A stretch of DNA of 59,709 nt from Haloferula sp. Lineage in GTDB: Bacteria; Verrucomicrobiota; Verrucomicrobiia; Verrucomicrobiales; Akkermansiaceae. The notes below the pieces were generated by a model that made no database searches, had not been told where the DNA came from, and saw only the letters and a list, made by a program, of their open reading frames with translations. The stretch spans positions 1 to 59,709 of the forward strand of contig SLAV01000178.1 of NCBI GenBank assembly GCA_007126655.1, written 5' to 3'. The position numbers and the translations under genes are program-made. Positions 1-23,960 of the stretch are shown in pieces. The number at the start of each line of letters is the position of its first letter. Within the stretch, counting starts at the first letter, position 1.

Positions 1-2261
1 AAAATGTTGTTGTAAAACTTCGTGTTGTGCGGCTTTCGGTTTTCCGCAACAAACTGCGCACCGGTAATGCCGGGGCCGGCATAATAGACATTGTTGTGGA
101 TCCGGATGTCCTCACATTCCGTGTCGTTGTCGAATCCGAAGAATATGAAACCTTCCTGGTCGTTCTGTGAGATGTTGTATCTCACATCCACCCCCTTGTT
201 CCATCGCTTCATGATCCCGATGAACCACAGGTTGTCATGGCTGTAGTTGTACTGGAACGTCGTGTCCCGCGAATTCCAGTCCGCGTCGAATCCGCCGCGA
301 TCCCTGCCGCCTTCTCCGGTGTTTCCATACGCCTCGTTGTGCTGAGCGACCAATCCAACCGTATGGAAATTGAACAGACTGTGTCCAGTGTTGTGGCGGC
401 TGCTGTTTGCGAGCACATTGTATTCAACCAGTGGATCCAGGCTCTGACGAATGATCATGTTGTTGCGGGACGTGTTGCTGATGAAGTTGTGGGCAATGTA
501 AACCCCGGTCCATAGATGATCGATCTGGTCGATATTCACGCGGTTGAAGCTGGAATTCGTCGCAATGCCGACGCCCCCGGTCCTTTCGACCGTGTTCCCG
601 ACAATCCGCAGATCATGAATCATCGTGGGTATGGTTCCGAAAGTGTGCACATGGATGCCACCGTGCCCCTTGGCGTCATCAGGATCCGAATCCAGCGTGA
701 TGCCGTTCACATCATGCACGTAACAATGCTTGATGTGGATGTGGTTCATGACCGTATTCGGCCGGTCATCATCGGTTTCGACATAAATCCCCATGATCAC
801 CCCCTGGTGATTGTCCGTGCCGTCCGTGTTGGTCACCTCGATGTTGTGTATTTCCCAGTATTCCACATTCTTCAGGTGGATCGCGGCTTTGTTCACACCC
901 ATGGCGTTGATGATCGGCATGGCCCCCTCACCATGGCTGGCGATGCGGATCGGCTGGTCTGCCGTGCCGCTCCCCTGCGGTGCAAACATACCGCTGAATA
1001 TCCGCCCGCGCTTGAACAGGATTACATCACCCGGTTCGAAAGCATGGTTTTTGTAGGTATCAAATTCCGATTGGTCGTCAATGGTGATGACCGAACCGAT
1101 CTCAGCGTCGTCCAGATCGATACTGAGCCGGAAAAACCGGCGGTCGATGCCGGTGTTGTTGACGGTGGCCTTGACCCGTTCCACCGCATGTGTGATCGAT
1201 TCGACTTCGGTTTGACCGGGTGTGTAGGGATCCCAATTCCGCAAGTCGTTGCTGGATTCAATATTCTGCTCGATATGTGGCGCGTCATTTCTCCGGCGAT
1301 AGGATATTTCAATATCTCCCGTGGATTCCGCAATCCCGGCGGACAGGCCTTCGCCGGGAGAATCCGGGATCGTCGGGTCCAGGCCGAAGGCGAATTCGAC
1401 AAGGTTTGCGAAGCCGTCGCCATCCTTGTCGTCGGCAGGGCCGGTATCGTTTCCACTGAGTCCGTGATTCAGCTTGAAATGCTGATAGCCAAACACACCG
1501 GTTGGCAAACCCTCCCCGATGGGCGCGCCGGCCGTCGTGGGATGTTCTTTCATGAGCGTGAGACCCAGCTCATGGACCATGATGTTTTTCAATACGGCGA
1601 GTCCGTCCGCCGTCAGCGCGGTTTCATCCGAGGGCAGGGCAAAATAAATCCGATCTCCCGCATGGGTCGTCTGGGTCACGGGAAACCCGTTTGGTGTGGT
1701 GGTGGCCAAAGCCGACCCCGCCGCATACCTGACGCCGACAATTCCCGAGGAATGATCGGCCAGCAGGGTTCCGCCGCCGATCGGGGAATCGATCACCACA
1801 TTGAACGCATCGACATAAAGATCGGCCGGATTCGAGGTAATGCCGGTAAAGACAGGGTCCCCGGGTTCGACAAGGTTCGTTTCAAACCCATCCGCGGAGG
1901 CAGTGGCGATCGTTCCGGAATCGATCCATCCCCAACGGCTGCCCCTCACCATGAAGGCATTGGCAACAAACACCTTGCATGGGAGGTTGTTCCAGGAATC
2001 GATTTCCGCTGCTGAACCGGCATAATTCGCACTGTTCGTCGATCGGGTGATGATCACCACATCGTTCGGATCAACCGCAGGCGCCCCGTCCGTGAATTGA
2101 CCGGGAACGATGTATTCGGCGATGTGATCTGCCAGCCATTGGTATAATTCATCCGCGACCGGATCATTTCCAACAAAGTAAACCGTGGTGTCCGCACTTG
2201 CACACGGCGTGGCAAGCGCGAAGATGGATGAGGCAAGGCAACTGCCGATAATTCGTTTCAT
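1..2261 (-). CDS. secreted right-handed beta-helix protein, 3' end cut by window edge
   Basis: The minus-strand frame is open from an ATG at 2261 to the window edge (about 753 codons, no stop). Residues 1-23 form a signal peptide ending in a CASA-like cleavage site. A middle segment (near residues 275-300) has the acidic DKDGDGFANLVEFAFGLDP motif, typical of Ca-binding dockerin-like repeats in secreted PVC proteins. The C-terminal half is rich in short N-, H- and I-containing turns (for example IHNIEVTNTDG, VEYNVLANSS, VDVRYNISQND), the pattern of parallel beta-helix (PbH1) repeats found in polysaccharide lyases and adhesins. An extracellular or surface role in glycan binding or cleavage is inferred; substrate and catalytic residues cannot be read. 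The lack of a C-terminus prevents a check for a PEP-CTERM sorting signal. Confidence 0.8.
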   Translation of the reverse strand, partial: MKRIIGSCLASSIFALATPCASADTTVYFVGNDPVADELYQWLADHIAEYIVPGQFTDGAPAVDPNDVVIITRSTNSANYAGSAAEIDSWNNLPCKVFVANAFMVRGSRWGWIDSGTIATASADGFETNLVEPGDPVFTGITSNPADLYVDAFNVVIDSPIGGGTLLADHSSGIVGVRYAAGSALATTTPNGFPVTQTTHAGDRIYFALPSDETALTADGLAVLKNIMVHELGLTLMKEHPTTAGAPIGEGLPTGVFGYQHFKLNHGLSGNDTGPADDKDGDGFANLVEFAFGLDPTIPDSPGEGLSAGIAESTGDIEISYRRRNDAPHIEQNIESSNDLRNWDPYTPGQTEVESITHAVERVKATVNNTGIDRRFFRLSIDLDDAEIGSVITIDDQSEFDTYKNHAFEPGDVILFKRGRIFSGMFAPQGSGTADQPIRIASHGEGAMPIINAMGVNKAAIHLKNVEYWEIHNIEVTNTDGTDNHQGVIMGIYVETDDDRPNTVMNHIHIKHCYVHDVNGITLDSDPDDAKGHGGIHVHTFGTIPTMIHDLRIVGNTVERTGGVGIATNSSFNRVNIDQIDHLWTGVYIAHNFISNTSRNNMIIRQSLDPLVEYNVLANSSRHNTGHSLFNFHTVGLVAQHNEAYGNTGEGGRDRGGFDADWNSRDTTFQYNYSHDNLWFIGIMKRWNKGVDVRYNISQNDQEGFIFFGFDNDTECEDIRIHNNVYYAGPGITGAQFVAENRKPHNTKFYNNI

Positions 2262-2338
2262 GACGCGGAAATATGCGTTACCGCCATTGTTGTCGAATAC
2301 AAAAACCACGACAAGTCCTGCAACGGGGTGCTTGTCCG

Positions 2339-2440
2339 TCATCGCCACTTGCGAGCGGGGCGGCGCATGGCACCAATGCCCACCATGCCGGCCAGCAAGA
2401 CGGAAGTTGATGGCTAGGGGATGACGGTGACGTTGACCAT
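2339..2440 (-). pseudogene. remnant of a PEP-CTERM protein C-terminus
   Basis: On the minus strand the frame ending at the stop 2339-2341 reads PSTSVLLAGMVGIGAMRR and then PARKWR. This is the layout of a PEP-CTERM sorting signal: P-E-P-(S/T), a hydrophobic helix, then a basic tail. The codon expected to encode the Glu of PEP is TAG (2414-2416) and is preceded by VTVIP, so one nonsense change would explain the break. Nothing recognisable remains further upstream, so this is probably the tail of a lost secreted protein next to the beta-helix gene. The match is short and could be chance, but all parts of the signal are in order. Confidence 0.45.
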
Positions 2441-2441
2441 C

Positions 2442-2778
2442 GTTCCTCGTGTCATGCGAATGCCAGCACCATCCCATCTCGTGGGTCTCCGCCAAATTCG
2501 GCGGAGGTTGCTGTAAAATTTTTTTCCAGTGGTTACCGGATTCGATGGGATTCGATGGGGATGAGGGGAACAGTCACATCACATCTCAATACTCAAACGT
2601 ATCTGACGCATTCATGTCATGTGATGATTCATTGCCATCATATCCGTCAATAAAAATGCGGGAAACCGAGGATGTGCCATGGCACGGCCCCGGCAGGCAA
2701 AACGAGCGGAAACCAGAATAAGGTCTTGTCACCATTTCTCGCAACGCCATTTCCGTGATTGCCACAACACGCGAGGGC
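2442..2778. other. intergenic, no gene seen
   Basis: This is a comparatively AT-richer stretch between the beta-helix region and the nucleotidyltransferase. It holds a small hairpin (CTCCGCC, 6-nt loop, GGCGGAG near 2493-2512) followed about 10 nt later by a run of T. That could be a weak terminator for something reading rightwards, but no plus-strand gene precedes it. The upstream region of the nucleotidyltransferase presumably holds its promoter; no convincing -35/-10 pair was identified. Confidence 0.3.
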
Positions 2779-3618
2779 ATGCAGTTTCCCCGCGTGAAAG
2801 CCGTCATCACCGCCGCCGGGAAGAACCAGCGCTCCCTCCCGCTCCAGACGTTCGTCGATCGCGACGGCGTCACCAAGTCCGCCCTCGCGATCCTCGCCGG
2901 AGAAATCCTCGCCGCCGGGATCTCCGAGATCGCCGTTATCGTCCACCCTGGCGACGAGGCCGCCTACGCCGCCGCCGTCGGCCCGCTCGCCCGGCAAATG
3001 CGGTTCCTGCCGCAGCCCGAGCCGCTCGGCTACGGCCATGCCGTGCATTGCGCGGCGGAGTTCACCGGCGACGCGCCGTTTCTCCTCATGGTCGGCGACC
3101 ACCTCTACACCAGCCGCACCGATGTCTCGTGCGCCGCGCAGTTGCTCGCCGTGGCCGCCTCCGCGAAATGCCCCGTCTCCGCCGTACAGGCGACGCACGA
3201 GAGCAAGCTGCCATACTACGGCTGCATCGGCGGTCGCCGCGTGCAAGGGGCCGAGCGCCTCTATGAAGTCGAGACCGTCATTGAAAAACCCACGCCCACC
3301 GAGGCCGAGCAGAAACTCGTCGTCCCCGGCCTCCGGGCGGGTAACTACCTTTGCTTCTTCGGCATGCACGTGCTCACCCCCTCGGTGATGCGCACGCTCG
3401 CCGGGATTCTCGAAAACGGCTCCGCCGACCTCTCCGCCGCCCTTGCGGAAAACGCGCGCCGCGAGCGCTACCTCGCCTGCGAGATCCAGGGCCGCCGCCA
3501 CGACCTCGACCTCCACTACGGCCTGCTCACCACCCAGCTCGCGCTTGCACTCGCCGGGAAAGACCGCGAGGAAGTGCTCACCCTGCTCGTCGAGCAGCTC
3601 GCCCAATCCCAAGCCTGA
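2779..3618 (+). CDS. GalU-like sugar-phosphate nucleotidyltransferase
   Basis: 279 aa from ATG 2779; a GTG at 2755 in the same frame would add 8 residues. The N-terminus VKAVITAAG matches the Rossmann start of the NTP_transferase (GalU/RfbA) family. LGYGHAV matches the family's Q-x-x-x-LG-x-GHA motif near residue 88, and VIEKPTP provides the EKP motif. The usual G-x-G-T-R phosphate-binding loop is replaced by [10 protein letters not shown], so this is a divergent subfamily and nucleotide and sugar specificity cannot be assigned. It lies 14 bp upstream of the kinase/pyrophosphorylase fusion on the same strand, so the two are probably co-transcribed and both act in making NDP-sugars in the cytoplasm. 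Confidence 0.8.
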
Positions 3619-3632
3619 GACCCGCGCCCCCG

Positions 3633-6950
<3,318 letters not shown>

Positions 6951-19791: not shown

Positions 19792-20646
19792 ATGCGCGTT
19801 ATTTTGTTCACGGACATCCCGGTGTGGGTGAGGCCGTTGGCGGGGAAACTGGAGGCCCGCGGGGCGGAGGTGGTGACGGCGGCGGCGGTTGAGGACGTGC
19901 CGGACGACGGGCTGATCGTGAACCGGATCTCGACCCTGCTGTTCCGCAAGCAACCGGAGATGGGTGCGGATTTTCTCGCGGCGCTGGAAGGCTGGGAGCG
20001 GGAGGGGCGCGCGATGGTGAATGGCCCGCGGGTGCTGGCGCTCGGCGTCTCGAAGCTCGCCCAGGCGGGGTTTTTCGAGGATGCCGCGCTCGCCACGCCA
20101 CGGACGATGCGGGCGGAGCCGGGCAAGCGGGCACTTCCGGGCCGCCGGGTGCTGGTGAAACCCGGTGCGGGAGGATTCGGCAAGGACATCTTCGAGCTGG
20201 ACGGGGATCGCGCGGTGCCGCCGTTGCGCGGCGGCGATGCGGTGGAATGGGTGGAGCAGGAGCACGTCGCGCCGGTGGACGGGGCGGTCCACCGGGTGGA
20301 GTTCGTCGGTGACACGATTTTGTATGACGCCTGTTCGGGGATCCGGACGCAGGATTACAATTACTGCCTCGCCAATACGGAGGCCGAGGTCGAGCTGCGG
20401 CCGGAGGCGGAGAGGTTGCCGCTCGCGGCCAGTCAGGCGCGGATGGTGGCGCGGAAAGCGGGGATGGAGCTGGGGGCGGTCGAGTATCTGGTCGGGGAGG
20501 GGCGGGTGCCGCATTTCATCGATCTGAACCCGGTCTCGAGCCTGCATCCGGGCGCGGTCACGATGTTGGGGGCGGATCCGCTCGACCTCACCGCGGAATT
20601 CCTGCTGCGGCGGGCGGGTGCGTCCACCGGGGAAGTTCCTCAGTAG
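19792..20646 (+). CDS. RimK-like ATP-grasp protein
   Basis: 284 aa. It has an ATP-grasp layout: an N-terminal Rossmann part (MRVILFTDIPVWVRPLAGKL), the flexible ATP loop region RVLVKPGAGGFGKDIFEL near residue 120, VEQEHVAPVDGAVHRVEFVG, and a metal-binding FIDLNPVSSLHPGA near the end (the N-x-N/D motif). Such ligases join a carboxylate to an amine or thiol with ATP. Substrate unknown. The last 59 bp overlap the 3' end of the convergent aconitase X gene, so both coding ends share DNA on opposite strands. Confidence 0.75.
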   Translation: MRVILFTDIPVWVRPLAGKLEARGAEVVTAAAVEDVPDDGLIVNRISTLLFRKQPEMGADFLAALEGWEREGRAMVNGPRVLALGVSKLAQAGFFEDAALATPRTMRAEPGKRALPGRRVLVKPGAGGFGKDIFELDGDRAVPPLRGGDAVEWVEQEHVAPVDGAVHRVEFVGDTILYDACSGIRTQDYNYCLANTEAEVELRPEAERLPLAASQARMVARKAGMELGAVEYLVGEGRVPHFIDLNPVSSLHPGAVTMLGADPLDLTAEFLLRRAGASTGEVPQ

Positions 20647-22297
20647 CCTGGCCGGTGGCGGCGGCCTCGGCGCAATCGGCAAGCGTGCCGAAGCGCATCC
20701 GCCGCCCGGTGAGGCCGGGGCCGTAGTGTGCGTATTTTCCCGAATTGGTCATGATGACCTGCGCGGCGGGCGGAAACACCGGCTCGCTGATCGAGCACCA
20801 GCAGAGGTCGCGCAGGATCGTGACTCCGGCGTCGCGCAAGGTCCGGTCCGTGCCGTCTTTGCGCAGTTGCGCGGCGACATGCGCGCCGATGGTGACGATG
20901 ACGTCCACGCCCGCGGCCACGTTGCGGCCGGCGAGATGGGTGGCGAAGTCGCGGCATTCGCGCGCGGAGGCATGCGGGCTGCCGATGGCCACCAGATCGA
21001 CCTTGGCGGGGGCGGCGTTGAATTGCGCCCAGAGCGCGCGCAGGTCCGACAGGGTGATGGCGGCGTGGTCCGCCCCGTCGGCGGGCGGCAGGCCGGCCTC
21101 CGGGGTGATGCCGGCGAGGTGCAGCATCGGCGCGCCGGAGGTGGAGCCGAACGCGGCGCACAGCGCCTTGAGGTCGTCGGGGTCCGGGTTGAGTGGTTCG
21201 AGGCCGGTGAGGAGCGGGATGCGGTCGGGCGCGCGGTCGCCGGCGAGCCAGCCGAGCATCGGCCAGAAGGCATCGTCGGGCTCGTGCGGTGGCTCGACGG
21301 CGATGACGCGGGCGGCGCGGCGCGGGGCGTCGAGATACACGCCCGAGAGCGGTGCGCGACCGGTCATGGCGACGAAGAGGTCGAGAAAATCGGGGTGCTT
21401 GACGGTGCGGGCGCCGACGGCGGAGTTGGCGTAGATGACGGCGTTGGATTCCGACCAGCCGATCCGTTCGTCCCGCACGGGGGCGTCGTCGAGCGTGTAG
21501 GGCGCGCAGGTGAACGTGGGGCGCGCGCCCATGGCGACGTAGGCATCGGCGAGTGCCGCGGCCGGGCCGCCGAAGTCGGGCGGCGTGCCCTGGACCTGCC
21601 AGCGCCCGTGTTCGACGGAGATCGCGTTCATGGTCGTCGGCACGCGGACGCGCGCGCCCATGTCTTTCATCGCTTGGGCGAAGCGCAGGTTGGCGGGGCT
21701 GGCGTAGATGCAGCCGTCGATGTGCCCGCGGGTGATGTCGCACAATTCCGCGGCCCCCTGCTGGGCGGCCATGATGCAGGTGATTTCCATGGCCAGCGCG
21801 TTGGCGGCGCCCTCTTCGCCCGCGAGCATGGCGCGGTCGGCATCGGTCAGGTCGAGCGCGGTGGCATCGACCTTGCGCAGTGGCAGGCGCAGTTCGCCGG
21901 CTTCGAGGTGGGTCGCGGTGATCGCGGCGTGCCCGGCCCGTGCGACTTGGGCGAACGTTTCCCGGTCGAGCCGCAGGACGGGCAGCGGCCGTTCGAAGAG
22001 CCGCCCGGCGATCAGGGTGCCAAGCGTGAGCACATCCTCGCTTTCGCAGAAAATCAATGCGGCGGGCGCCGTGTCGTTGAGCACGAGTTCGAGCAAGACG
22101 CCGCTGCCGGTGCATGACCCGCGCGAGGAGGGCATCATGACGACGCGCCCGGCGAGGCTGGTGCCATGCCGCGGGTGGTGGGTGTCGATGACGACGCCGG
22201 TTGTGGCATCCACGCCGCCCCAGAAACTGAGGCCCGGGTCGCACAGGACCACGTCGCCCGTGCCGGTGCCGGGGGAAATCAGGAGTGCTTCGGTCAC
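20588..22297 (-). CDS. aconitase X, single-chain (AcnX swivel + catalytic domains)
   Basis: About 569 aa from GTG 22297; TTG 22306 is also possible, and no ATG is suitably placed. Residues about 1-130 match the DUF126/AcnX swivel domain (MMPSSRGSCTGSGVLLELVL, FCESEDVLTLG). The rest matches the DUF521/AcnX catalytic domain (MEITCIMAAQQGAAELCDIT, HIDGCIYASPANLRFA, YANSAVGARTVKHPDFLDL). Characterised single-chain bacterial AcnX proteins dehydrate cis-3-hydroxy-L-proline; two-chain archaeal relatives act on phosphomevalonate. The first activity is more likely here, but no proline-catabolism gene flanks it. Its 3' end overlaps the opposite-strand ATP-grasp gene by 59 bp. Confidence 0.88.
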   Translation of the reverse strand: MTEALLISPGTGTGDVVLCDPGLSFWGGVDATTGVVIDTHHPRHGTSLAGRVVMMPSSRGSCTGSGVLLELVLNDTAPAALIFCESEDVLTLGTLIAGRLFERPLPVLRLDRETFAQVARAGHAAITATHLEAGELRLPLRKVDATALDLTDADRAMLAGEEGAANALAMEITCIMAAQQGAAELCDITRGHIDGCIYASPANLRFAQAMKDMGARVRVPTTMNAISVEHGRWQVQGTPPDFGGPAAALADAYVAMGARPTFTCAPYTLDDAPVRDERIGWSESNAVIYANSAVGARTVKHPDFLDLFVAMTGRAPLSGVYLDAPRRAARVIAVEPPHEPDDAFWPMLGWLAGDRAPDRIPLLTGLEPLNPDPDDLKALCAAFGSTSGAPMLHLAGITPEAGLPPADGADHAAITLSDLRALWAQFNAAPAKVDLVAIGSPHASARECRDFATHLAGRNVAAGVDVIVTIGAHVAAQLRKDGTDRTLRDAGVTILRDLCWCSISEPVFPPAAQVIMTNSGKYAHYGPGLTGRRMRFGTLADCAEAAATGQATEELPRWTHPPAAAGIPR

Positions 22298-22352
22298 GTG
22301 CGGCAATCGATGGTTCGAGGGTGGGGACGGGTCAATCCGGATCGGCGGGCCG

Positions 22353-23960
22353 TCATTCTCCCATCAACCCGAGCATGGCCCCGCCCATGGCCTCGCCGGT
22401 GAAGAGGAAGCTGCCGGCGTGTTGGCGGAAGTCCCAATCGCGGCCGCCGGGCGATTCGTCCTCGGGAAAGAAGAACGGCTCCGTGTCCACCGAAGCGACG
22501 TGGGAAAGCTCGTCGGCTATGGCCATCTGCGCGGTGTGAACGGCGCGCTGGTCGTCGCTCATGGCATCGCCGTGCTGGCCGATGGCGGTGACGACGAACG
22601 GCAGCTCCAGCGCGTCGAACTCGTTGCGGATGTCCCGGATGAAGGCCTTGAGGTTTTCGCCGTAGGCTTCGGCGAACGCGGGCGATCCCGCATCCGCGAT
22701 GCCCTGGAACCAGAAAAACCCGGCCAGCTCGGGTTGGCGGCCGGCGAAGTCCGGCGCGTAGCGGTCGATCTCCGCGAAAAGCGTGTGCACCGAATTGATG
22801 AGTTCGAGGTATTCCTGGCCGTTGAGCAGGTAGCTTTCGAGGTCCACCCACTCGTCCACAAGTTTGACTCCGGTGCCGGTGTGCTGGGCGTTGCCGGGGT
22901 TTTTCGCGACGAACGCGATGCCGTCGAGATTTTCCTTCACGCGCTCCCAGTATGAGCCGGTGATGGAATCCCCGATCATGAGCACGCGCGGCATCGGGCG
23001 CGACGGGTTTTCGCGATCGTCCAGCGCGGCCTGGATCACTTCGGTCACCTTCGGGGCGAGGTTGCCGACGTCGTGCACGTCGAGTCTTTCCGGCTTGCCG
23101 AGTCGCCTGGCCTCGGCATTGAGGTCATTGATGATCACGCCGTTTTCCTCCATGATTTTCGCGGCCACGGCGTTGTATTCGTTCACCTTTTCGCCGCCGA
23201 AGAAGCCCGGCTTGGAGCCCTCGAGGATCGGCGTGGTGTGGGCCCAGATGAGGGTGGCTCCGGTCTTTTTGAGGCGGGCGACGATGGTGCGGAGGTTTTC
23301 CTCGTATTCCTCGATGGACGTGCGGATCTCGCCGCCGTCCTCGGGCATCCGGCGTTGGCCGAGGTTCCCCGGCTCGTGCGACTGGAGGTCCCAGACGCCG
23401 TGGTTGAAGTGGATGACGTCCCAGCCGCCGTCGAAGTCGAGCCCGCCGCCGCCGGATGGCGGCAGGTAATCGTGGCCCAGCGACCGCGAGCCGCGGCGGA
23501 ACCAGATCGGGTGCTTGGTGGCGAAGCGGGCGAGCAGCACCGGATCGTCGCCGGCTTCGCCGAGCACGTGCCCGGCCATCAGCTCGACGCCCACGCCGAA
23601 ACCGCGCGGGTCATCGGGATCGGTCGGCACGGTGAGCGGGCGTGCGGGGTCGCGGGTGTTGTTGTGGAGCGGGTGGGCGTCGTAGAGCGCCACATCGTCG
23701 CGCACGGCCCAGCCGTCGTCCGGGCTGCCGAGCGGGGCGAAGCGCGGGTGTTCGGCGACCATCCGGTGCAGCGTGCCGGGCGTGGCGGCGGCCTCTTCGG
23801 CTGAAACCGGCTGCGAGCCGTGGCCGCGCGGCACCCCGTCGATCGAACCGGTGCGGAGCACGTTCTCGTCTCCGGCGAGAATGAAGACGCGCAGCGGATC
23901 GGCATGGACGGTGGAGGCCAGCGCAAAGGCGACGGCGGCGATGAGGCGGTGGATTTTCAT
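22353..23960 (-). CDS. secreted SASA-type esterase with an embedded, permuted SGNH hydrolase
   Basis: 535 aa with a signal peptide (residues 1-20). Residues about 22-165 and 345-535 together make a SASA/DUF303 (sialate O-acetylesterase-like) domain: VFILAGDENV at the start, AGFFWFQGIADAG near 395, and RQHAGSFLFTGEAMGGAM at the end. The catalytic Ser of the usual GQSNM is Glu. Between them sits a full set of SGNH-hydrolase blocks in swapped order: WDVIHFNHGVWDL (block III) near 180, ATLIWAHTTP, YNAVAAKIMEENGVIINDL and DVHDVGNLAP come first, and PRVLMIGDSITGSYW (block I) near 310 follows. It probably removes acetyl groups from exported glycans; which site is active is unclear. Confidence 0.72.
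   Translation of the reverse strand: MKIHRLIAAVAFALASTVHADPLRVFILAGDENVLRTGSIDGVPRGHGSQPVSAEEAAATPGTLHRMVAEHPRFAPLGSPDDGWAVRDDVALYDAHPLHNNTRDPARPLTVPTDPDDPRGFGVGVELMAGHVLGEAGDDPVLLARFATKHPIWFRRGSRSLGHDYLPPSGGGGLDFDGGWDVIHFNHGVWDLQSHEPGNLGQRRMPEDGGEIRTSIEEYEENLRTIVARLKKTGATLIWAHTTPILEGSKPGFFGGEKVNEYNAVAAKIMEENGVIINDLNAEARRLGKPERLDVHDVGNLAPKVTEVIQAALDDRENPSRPMPRVLMIGDSITGSYWERVKENLDGIAFVAKNPGNAQHTGTGVKLVDEWVDLESYLLNGQEYLELINSVHTLFAEIDRYAPDFAGRQPELAGFFWFQGIADAGSPAFAEAYGENLKAFIRDIRNEFDALELPFVVTAIGQHGDAMSDDQRAVHTAQMAIADELSHVASVDTEPFFFPEDESPGGRDWDFRQHAGSFLFTGEAMGGAMLGLMGE

Follow-up and report, generated by a model that had tools for sequence, protein, structure and literature searches.

Esterases related to the SGNH hydrolases have been described in which the catalytic domain is either interrupted by another domain or circularly permuted. 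In some CE20 esterases, represented by XacXaeA, Fl8CE20_II and PpCE20_II, the SGNH catalytic domain is split by a beta-sandwich, and the accessible part of the source also describes a water-mediated Ser-His-(water-Asp/Asn) triad for these enzymes (PMC12313940). AlgX, AlgJ and BcPatB1 are naturally circularly permuted SGNH enzymes with the order H-S-G-N, as given in the accessible portions of two reports (PMC9487903, PMC4148444). For the SASA enzymes, the accessible text of the former states that the Gln beside the Ser forms the oxyanion hole together with the HQGE of block III (PMC9487903). Insertion and permutation can also co-occur, and the part of a survey available to us cites insertional domains of RNA polymerase in this respect (PMC13114784). 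In the open-licence literature, we found neither the order N-H-S-G nor a SASA host with a permuted SGNH insert described.

The protein analyzed here appears to combine these features. It is encoded in the window, by which we mean the whole stretch of 59,709 nucleotides that was analyzed, by a gene that an earlier reading of the letters alone (the sequence-only reading) had placed at the same coordinates. Judged by its alignments, the order of its parts is SASA-N, SGNH-C, SGNH-N, SASA-C, and the protein is probably secreted. The features are as follows.

22353..23960, minus strand: whole gene, an open reading frame of 535 amino acids
23901..23960, minus strand: likely signal peptide, about residues 1-20, judged by eye from the sequence
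23445..23891, minus strand: outer SASA N-terminal half, residues 24-172 (SASA HMM positions 1-120)
23022..23426, minus strand: inner SGNH C-terminal half, residues 179-313 (SGNH HMM positions 62-199; Pfam Lipase_GDSL_2 at 181-291)
23004..23021, minus strand: linker, residues 314-319, joining the former C terminus of the inner domain to its former N terminus (stretch left between the two SGNH HMM matches)
22842..23003, minus strand: inner SGNH N-terminal half, residues 320-373 (SGNH HMM positions 6-59)
22359..22826, minus strand: outer SASA C-terminal half, residues 379-534 (SASA HMM positions 130-291; Pfam SASA at 407-494)

The motif positions, located by script from their first residues (GDEN 30, GSRSL 157, HFNHG 184, DVHD 294, GDSI 330, NPGN 354, FQGI 418), follow this layout. 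The outer N-terminal half has GDE at residues 30-32, where GQS is expected, and GSRSL in the block II region (157-161). The inner C-terminal half contains block III (HFN, 184-186) and block V (DVH, 294-296), and the inner N-terminal half contains block I (GDSIT, 330-334) and block II (NPGN, 354-357). The outer C-terminal half has WFQGIAD at block III (417-423) and, in the alignment, no conserved His at the block V position of the SASA family. The sequence-only reading had proposed that SGNH block I follows blocks III and V, that the latter two lie within residues 180-300, and that the whole set splits a SASA domain; motif positions and split HMM matches agree with all of this, and only its placement of GDSIT near residue 310 has to be corrected, to 330-334.

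This arrangement was most clearly seen with profiles of close relatives. An HMM of 37 canonical-order SGNH domains matched the native protein in exchanged order, with positions 62-199 on residues 179-313 (i-E-value 3e-35) and then positions 6-59 on residues 320-373 (i-E-value 5e-16), and when the inner halves were exchanged this became a single match covering positions 7-200 of 201 with 177 bits. The SASA halves gave nothing significant with the SGNH HMM, the best score being −1.6 bits. An HMM of 20 uninterrupted SASA proteins aligned its positions 1-120 with residues 24-172 and its positions 130-291 with residues 379-534, and produced one continuous match of 200 bits once the insert was left out. 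The scores of both HMMs are far above chance level; the permutation cut lacks two SGNH profile positions, and the host split of the window protein lacks nine SASA profile positions.

Pfam shows such proteins as pieces of two ordinary esterases. Pfam SASA matched residues 407-494 with 50.5 bits (cut-off 24.8), and Pfam Lipase_GDSL_2 matched two stretches of the window protein, the stronger at 181-291. The scores of the latter model were 29.7 bits for the inner segment with exchanged halves, 26.7 bits for its native order, and 21.9 bits for the inner N-terminal half joined to the outer C-terminal half. Since all three lie under the cut-off of 32.9 bits, Pfam alone does not decide the matter and profiles of close relatives are needed. 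With NCBIfam there was no match near any cut-off. The solved structure 4h08 (BT3161, for which our literature search found no papers) matched the family profile in swapped stretches, with profile positions 191-223 on chain residues 18-50 and 66-154 on 88-163 (full E-value 5e-11), the single stretches being weak (i-E-values 0.002 and 0.014). The inner domain contains SGNH blocks I, II, III and V with their Ser, Gly, Asn and His, in the order N-H-S-G and not the canonical S-G-N-H; permuted SGNH families are already known, so this order does not bar it from the superfamily. The outer domain belongs with SASA (PF03629) by the Pfam match, by our own HMM and by its modeled similarity to 2apj.

In structure prediction, the inner segment alone (residues 174-378) gave a confident model (pLDDT 94.6, pTM 0.91). 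Of the 43 rows in its input, 36 came from 18 canonical relatives, each entered as two separate halves so that closure was not imposed on the model. In a sequential fold comparison the best match was 3mil (Z 9.1, 135 residues, mostly in the C-terminal half), and 4h08 was matched with Z 8.8 over 117 residues at 2.9 angstrom (model residues 3-142). A match mainly over the C-terminal half is what is expected of a permutant in such a sequential comparison. Unrelated Rossmann-like entries appeared among the lower-ranked matches of the structure search with this model; AlgX and AlgJ are absent from the matches listed, which carries no weight. Together, pTM, pLDDT and the partial fold match favor a predicted closure of the two inner halves on each other, and the model speaks against their belonging to different domains, the outcome that would have told against the sequence-only reading.

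The full-length model, built from nine rows, is modest in confidence (pLDDT 72.9, pTM 0.68). It nevertheless matched 2apj with Z 20.4 and an rmsd of 3.6 over 230 of 243 residues (model residues 20-534). The best ten entries, with Z between 16.8 and 20.4, were nine esterases of the SASA, CE20, SIAE or NanS type and a cyanophage tailspike, and unrelated Rossmann-type entries in the same list reached Z values of about 9-10. The aligned ranges of these ten entries start at model residues 11-22 and end at 533-535, that is, they span both ends, which requires the outer halves to be packed on each other in the model. The superpositions that Foldseek produced with the full-length model were poor for 2apj, 7kmm and 1zmb (rmsd 13-17).

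Several comparisons with the known systems can now be made. The SASA carbohydrate esterases (PF03629; 2apj, 1zmb, NanS, SIAE) have the same outer fold in both halves, by profile and by model, but the window protein differs from them in having GDE for GQS, no conserved block V His, and an inserted SGNH domain. As in CE20, to the extent that the source covers it, an SGNH-hydrolase domain is split by an inserted domain and would close in space, and the CE20-type structures 9ega and 9h4u indeed match the outer fold of the full-length model. However, the CE20 enzymes described there have a beta-sandwich as insert and a catalytic host, whereas in the window protein an SGNH domain is inserted into a host that has lost its nucleophile. 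The inner domain resembles AlgX, AlgJ and BcPatB1 in being a circularly permuted SGNH domain, and AlgJ also has a DxH block V. In the accessible descriptions, those proteins are cut between blocks III and V and are not nested in another SGNH-fold domain; the inner domain is cut between blocks II and III and is so nested. Its parent family would be the canonical GDSL_2/SGNH proteins, chiefly of Planctomycetota and Verrucomicrobiota (L054, L059, L004 and others; 4h08), which occur alone or fused to other domains.

To define the family, genomes were surveyed with a profile of 293 positions at E ≤ 1e-40, scoring up to 12 or up to 6 candidates per genome. The family sample contained members in at least 5 of its 195 genomes, the order sample in at least 6 of 386 and the phylum sample in at least 2 of 387, these samples overlapping and each including the genome of the window. 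A scan of genome contigs yielded 59 loci, six of which hold seven permuted proteins (L009, L010, L011, L012, L013 twice, and L014). After removal of repeats (L068, which shares its sequence with L009, and L076 and L078, which equal the two proteins of L013), 16 different members including the window protein were aligned. Up to 12 genomes are represented; L010, L011, L012 and L014 were taken as separate genomes because a sampled comparison of 60-base pieces with the other new loci showed no sharing. The members at L011 and L075 are cut by contig ends, and the order SASA-N, SGNH-C, SGNH-N, SASA-C was found in all 15 rows of sufficient length. When the two inner halves were used as separate queries, 59 other open reading frames matched the C-terminal half and 54 of these, at 53 loci, also matched the N-terminal half, in every case in canonical order (54/54). 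In an unrooted tree of 53 inner and canonical domains, the 15 permuted domains are set apart from all the others by a single branch, whose support is 100/99. Plasmid sequences contained no family match; among 23 stretches from viral contigs there were three partial matches to the family profile (L147, L148, L149).

Two alternative explanations concern the order itself. With the cut lying between blocks II and III in both folds, the parts could pack either in a nested or in a tandem way. In the latter case, the chain would form two hybrid domains (SASA-N with SGNH-C, followed by SGNH-N with SASA-C), each in canonical order and with nothing nested or permuted in space. The equivalent position of the two breaks fits this, as does the match of Pfam Lipase_GDSL_2 to the second hybrid (profile positions 2-159, 21.9 bits); that match is, however, below the cut-off, as is the score of the inner segment with exchanged halves. 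Moreover, the end-to-end alignments of the best ten entries would be impossible for hybrids if the full-length model is correct, the inner segment is predicted to fold alone, the close-relative profiles stop at the hybrid junctions in the window protein, and the invariant Ser332 and His296 would fall in different domains. We therefore regard tandem hybrids as very improbable and nesting with permutation as the better description. The order could in principle also stem from an assembly or local rearrangement error, since the window comes from an assembly of 390 contigs. This has practically no chance of being correct and was ruled out: the order recurs in another copy from the same genome (L002, 50% identity) and in members from up to eleven other genomes. 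The homologue search proposed with the sequence-only reading thus showed that the permuted order recurs in whole-protein homologues and is not a local error.

With respect to catalysis, the sequence-only reading, which saw the nucleophile of the inner fold in permuted order, was borne out by the succession N186, H296, S332, G356. Ser332 and Gly356 are invariant (15/15), and so are Asn186 and His296 (16/16); Asn186 and Gly356 would form the oxyanion hole according to the alignment. At residue 294, four of the 16 members have Asp and the other 12 have Asn, and NVH is also found in five of the six canonical relatives listed. By analogy with CE20, in whose triad Asn occurs, Asn at 294 need not mean inactivity. 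After the block V His, the loop of the window protein falls short of that in canonical relatives by about four residues, which could impair catalysis. From this conservation we infer that the inner domain is active.

The outer site presents the opposite picture. Both the catalytic Ser and the neighboring Gln are replaced, by Asp31-Glu32, as the sequence-only reading had pointed out (GDEN for GQSN, with Glu for Ser), and its suggestion that the outer fold has lost its nucleophile gains support from the presence of GDE in all 16 members. All 20 uninterrupted SASA proteins that were read have GQSN, and GDE was found in none of them. Among 28 SASA-type proteins from the genome of the window and seven related genomes, GDE occurs in the eight that contain an inner domain and GQSN in the 20 that lack one; this count covers only open reading frames at the retrieved loci whose blocks I and III fit the pattern, and leaves out others, including permuted members with GDEC. 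At block III, the (H)QGE of SASA enzymes is replaced by WFQGIAD in the window protein and by similar sequences in its relatives, but the 20 uninterrupted relatives likewise lack that Glu (QGHKD, QGWND), so that block III is not diagnostic here. Outer residues invariant in 16/16 members are Asp31, Glu32, Arg87, Asp94, Asn100-Asn101-Thr102, Arg145, Gly157-Ser158-Arg159 and Asp164. With L075 left out, mean pairwise identity is 0.54 and 0.53 for the outer halves and 0.61 for the inner domain. Since the outer halves trail the inner domain only slightly in conservation, the outer domain looks to be under selection, and the outer halves may do more than serve as a scaffold.

Two further alternatives start from these observations. 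If the inner domain were dead as well, the whole protein would be a non-enzymatic carbohydrate-binding protein. The shortened loop after the block V His, the Asn at position 294 in most members and the prior loss of the outer site are in line with this, but the invariance of the four inner residues and the occurrence of NVH in canonical relatives argue against it, and we consider it unlikely. Alternatively, the outer site could have become a new catalytic or ligand site through Asp31-Glu32, giving two different working sites. The invariant outer residues would suit such a site, as would the fact that GDE accompanies the insert without exception in the 28 readable proteins; that conservation could, however, be structural, and Pfam and NCBIfam point to no other catalytic family for the outer part. 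This too seems distinctly unlikely. A related and more far-reaching reading, which we hold to be rather doubtful, is that a permuting insertion, with structurally equivalent break points in both folds, nested one fold in a distant homologue whose own site, lost at about the time of insertion, was rebuilt around the invariant Asp-Glu pair as a sugar-binding or catalytic site acting jointly with the permuted inner esterase. If true, this would make the protein a two-site carbohydrate enzyme in one nested chain.

The reading that we favor, and consider likely, is that the protein is a probably secreted carbohydrate O-acetylesterase in which a catalytic, permuted inner SGNH domain is nested in an outer SASA pseudoenzyme serving as scaffold or binding surface. 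In this proposal, a complete SGNH hydrolase domain would sit between blocks II and III of a SASA-type host, itself cut between its blocks II and III and with its original ends joined by the short linker, which would yield N-H-S-G. Ser332, His296 (with Asp/Asn294), Asn186 and Gly356 would constitute the one working esterase site, and the outer domain, no longer cutting esters, would persist as a scaffold and probably contribute to the surface that binds the substrate. The inner domain would de-O-acetylate polysaccharides; the substrate would be an acetylated polysaccharide, which in some members might contain fucose or rhamnose.

The genes near the family members were inspected in this respect (forty selected open reading frames at 13 loci besides the window, and two neighbors in the window). 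GH29, GH95 or GH106 genes lie near five of the 14 loci (L010, L013, L014, L141, L144), a sulfatase near two (L142, L143) and an ordinary SASA gene near four (L013, L141, L142, L145). No polysaccharide glycosidase was present among the scanned open reading frames at the window, L009, L011, L012, L140 (the second copy of the same genome) and L146. The number of GH29 genes ranges from 1 to 29 per genome in eight genomes, so that adjacency to GH genes is only suggestive. The two scanned neighbors of the window copy encode an ADP-ribosylglycohydrolase and aconitase X, the latter fused with its swivel domain in one open reading frame directly downstream (20588-22306, minus strand). A DUF6288 gene adjoins two different family members (L140, 1185-4784; L145, 7779-10937).

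How the arrangement arose can only be speculated upon. The cut points are equivalent in both folds, and either the insertion of a fragment of a tandem SGNH duplication or an unequal exchange between neighboring SASA and SGNH genes would give this order. No intermediate forms were seen among the 28 SASA-type proteins read or the 54 canonical-order SGNH open reading frames. Separate neighboring SGNH and SASA genes do exist at L066, but its SGNH protein is on a remote branch of the tree and L066 is therefore no evidence for the origin. The family would bring together domain insertion, circular permutation and loss of the host active site, which are usually described apart, with all three events taking place between two members of one superfamily, apparently from a single origin that has left several descendants alive today. 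A second order, N-H-S-G, would also join the H-S-G-N of the permuted SGNH enzymes that we found described, and the family would offer an example, open to experiment, in which a nested relative has taken the place of an esterase site.

Individual members show further variation. L002, L013 and L014 have a further insert after outer block I that is absent from the window copy, and the uninterrupted SASA protein of L003 carries additional sequence at a comparable position, which matches PA14 weakly and under the cut-off. At L009, whose sequence is the same as that of L068, an in-frame stop codon (5838-5840) lies within the inner domain; intact relatives exist. L013 encodes two permuted nested proteins in tandem (1997-4087 and 4091-6235), followed by an ordinary SASA gene.
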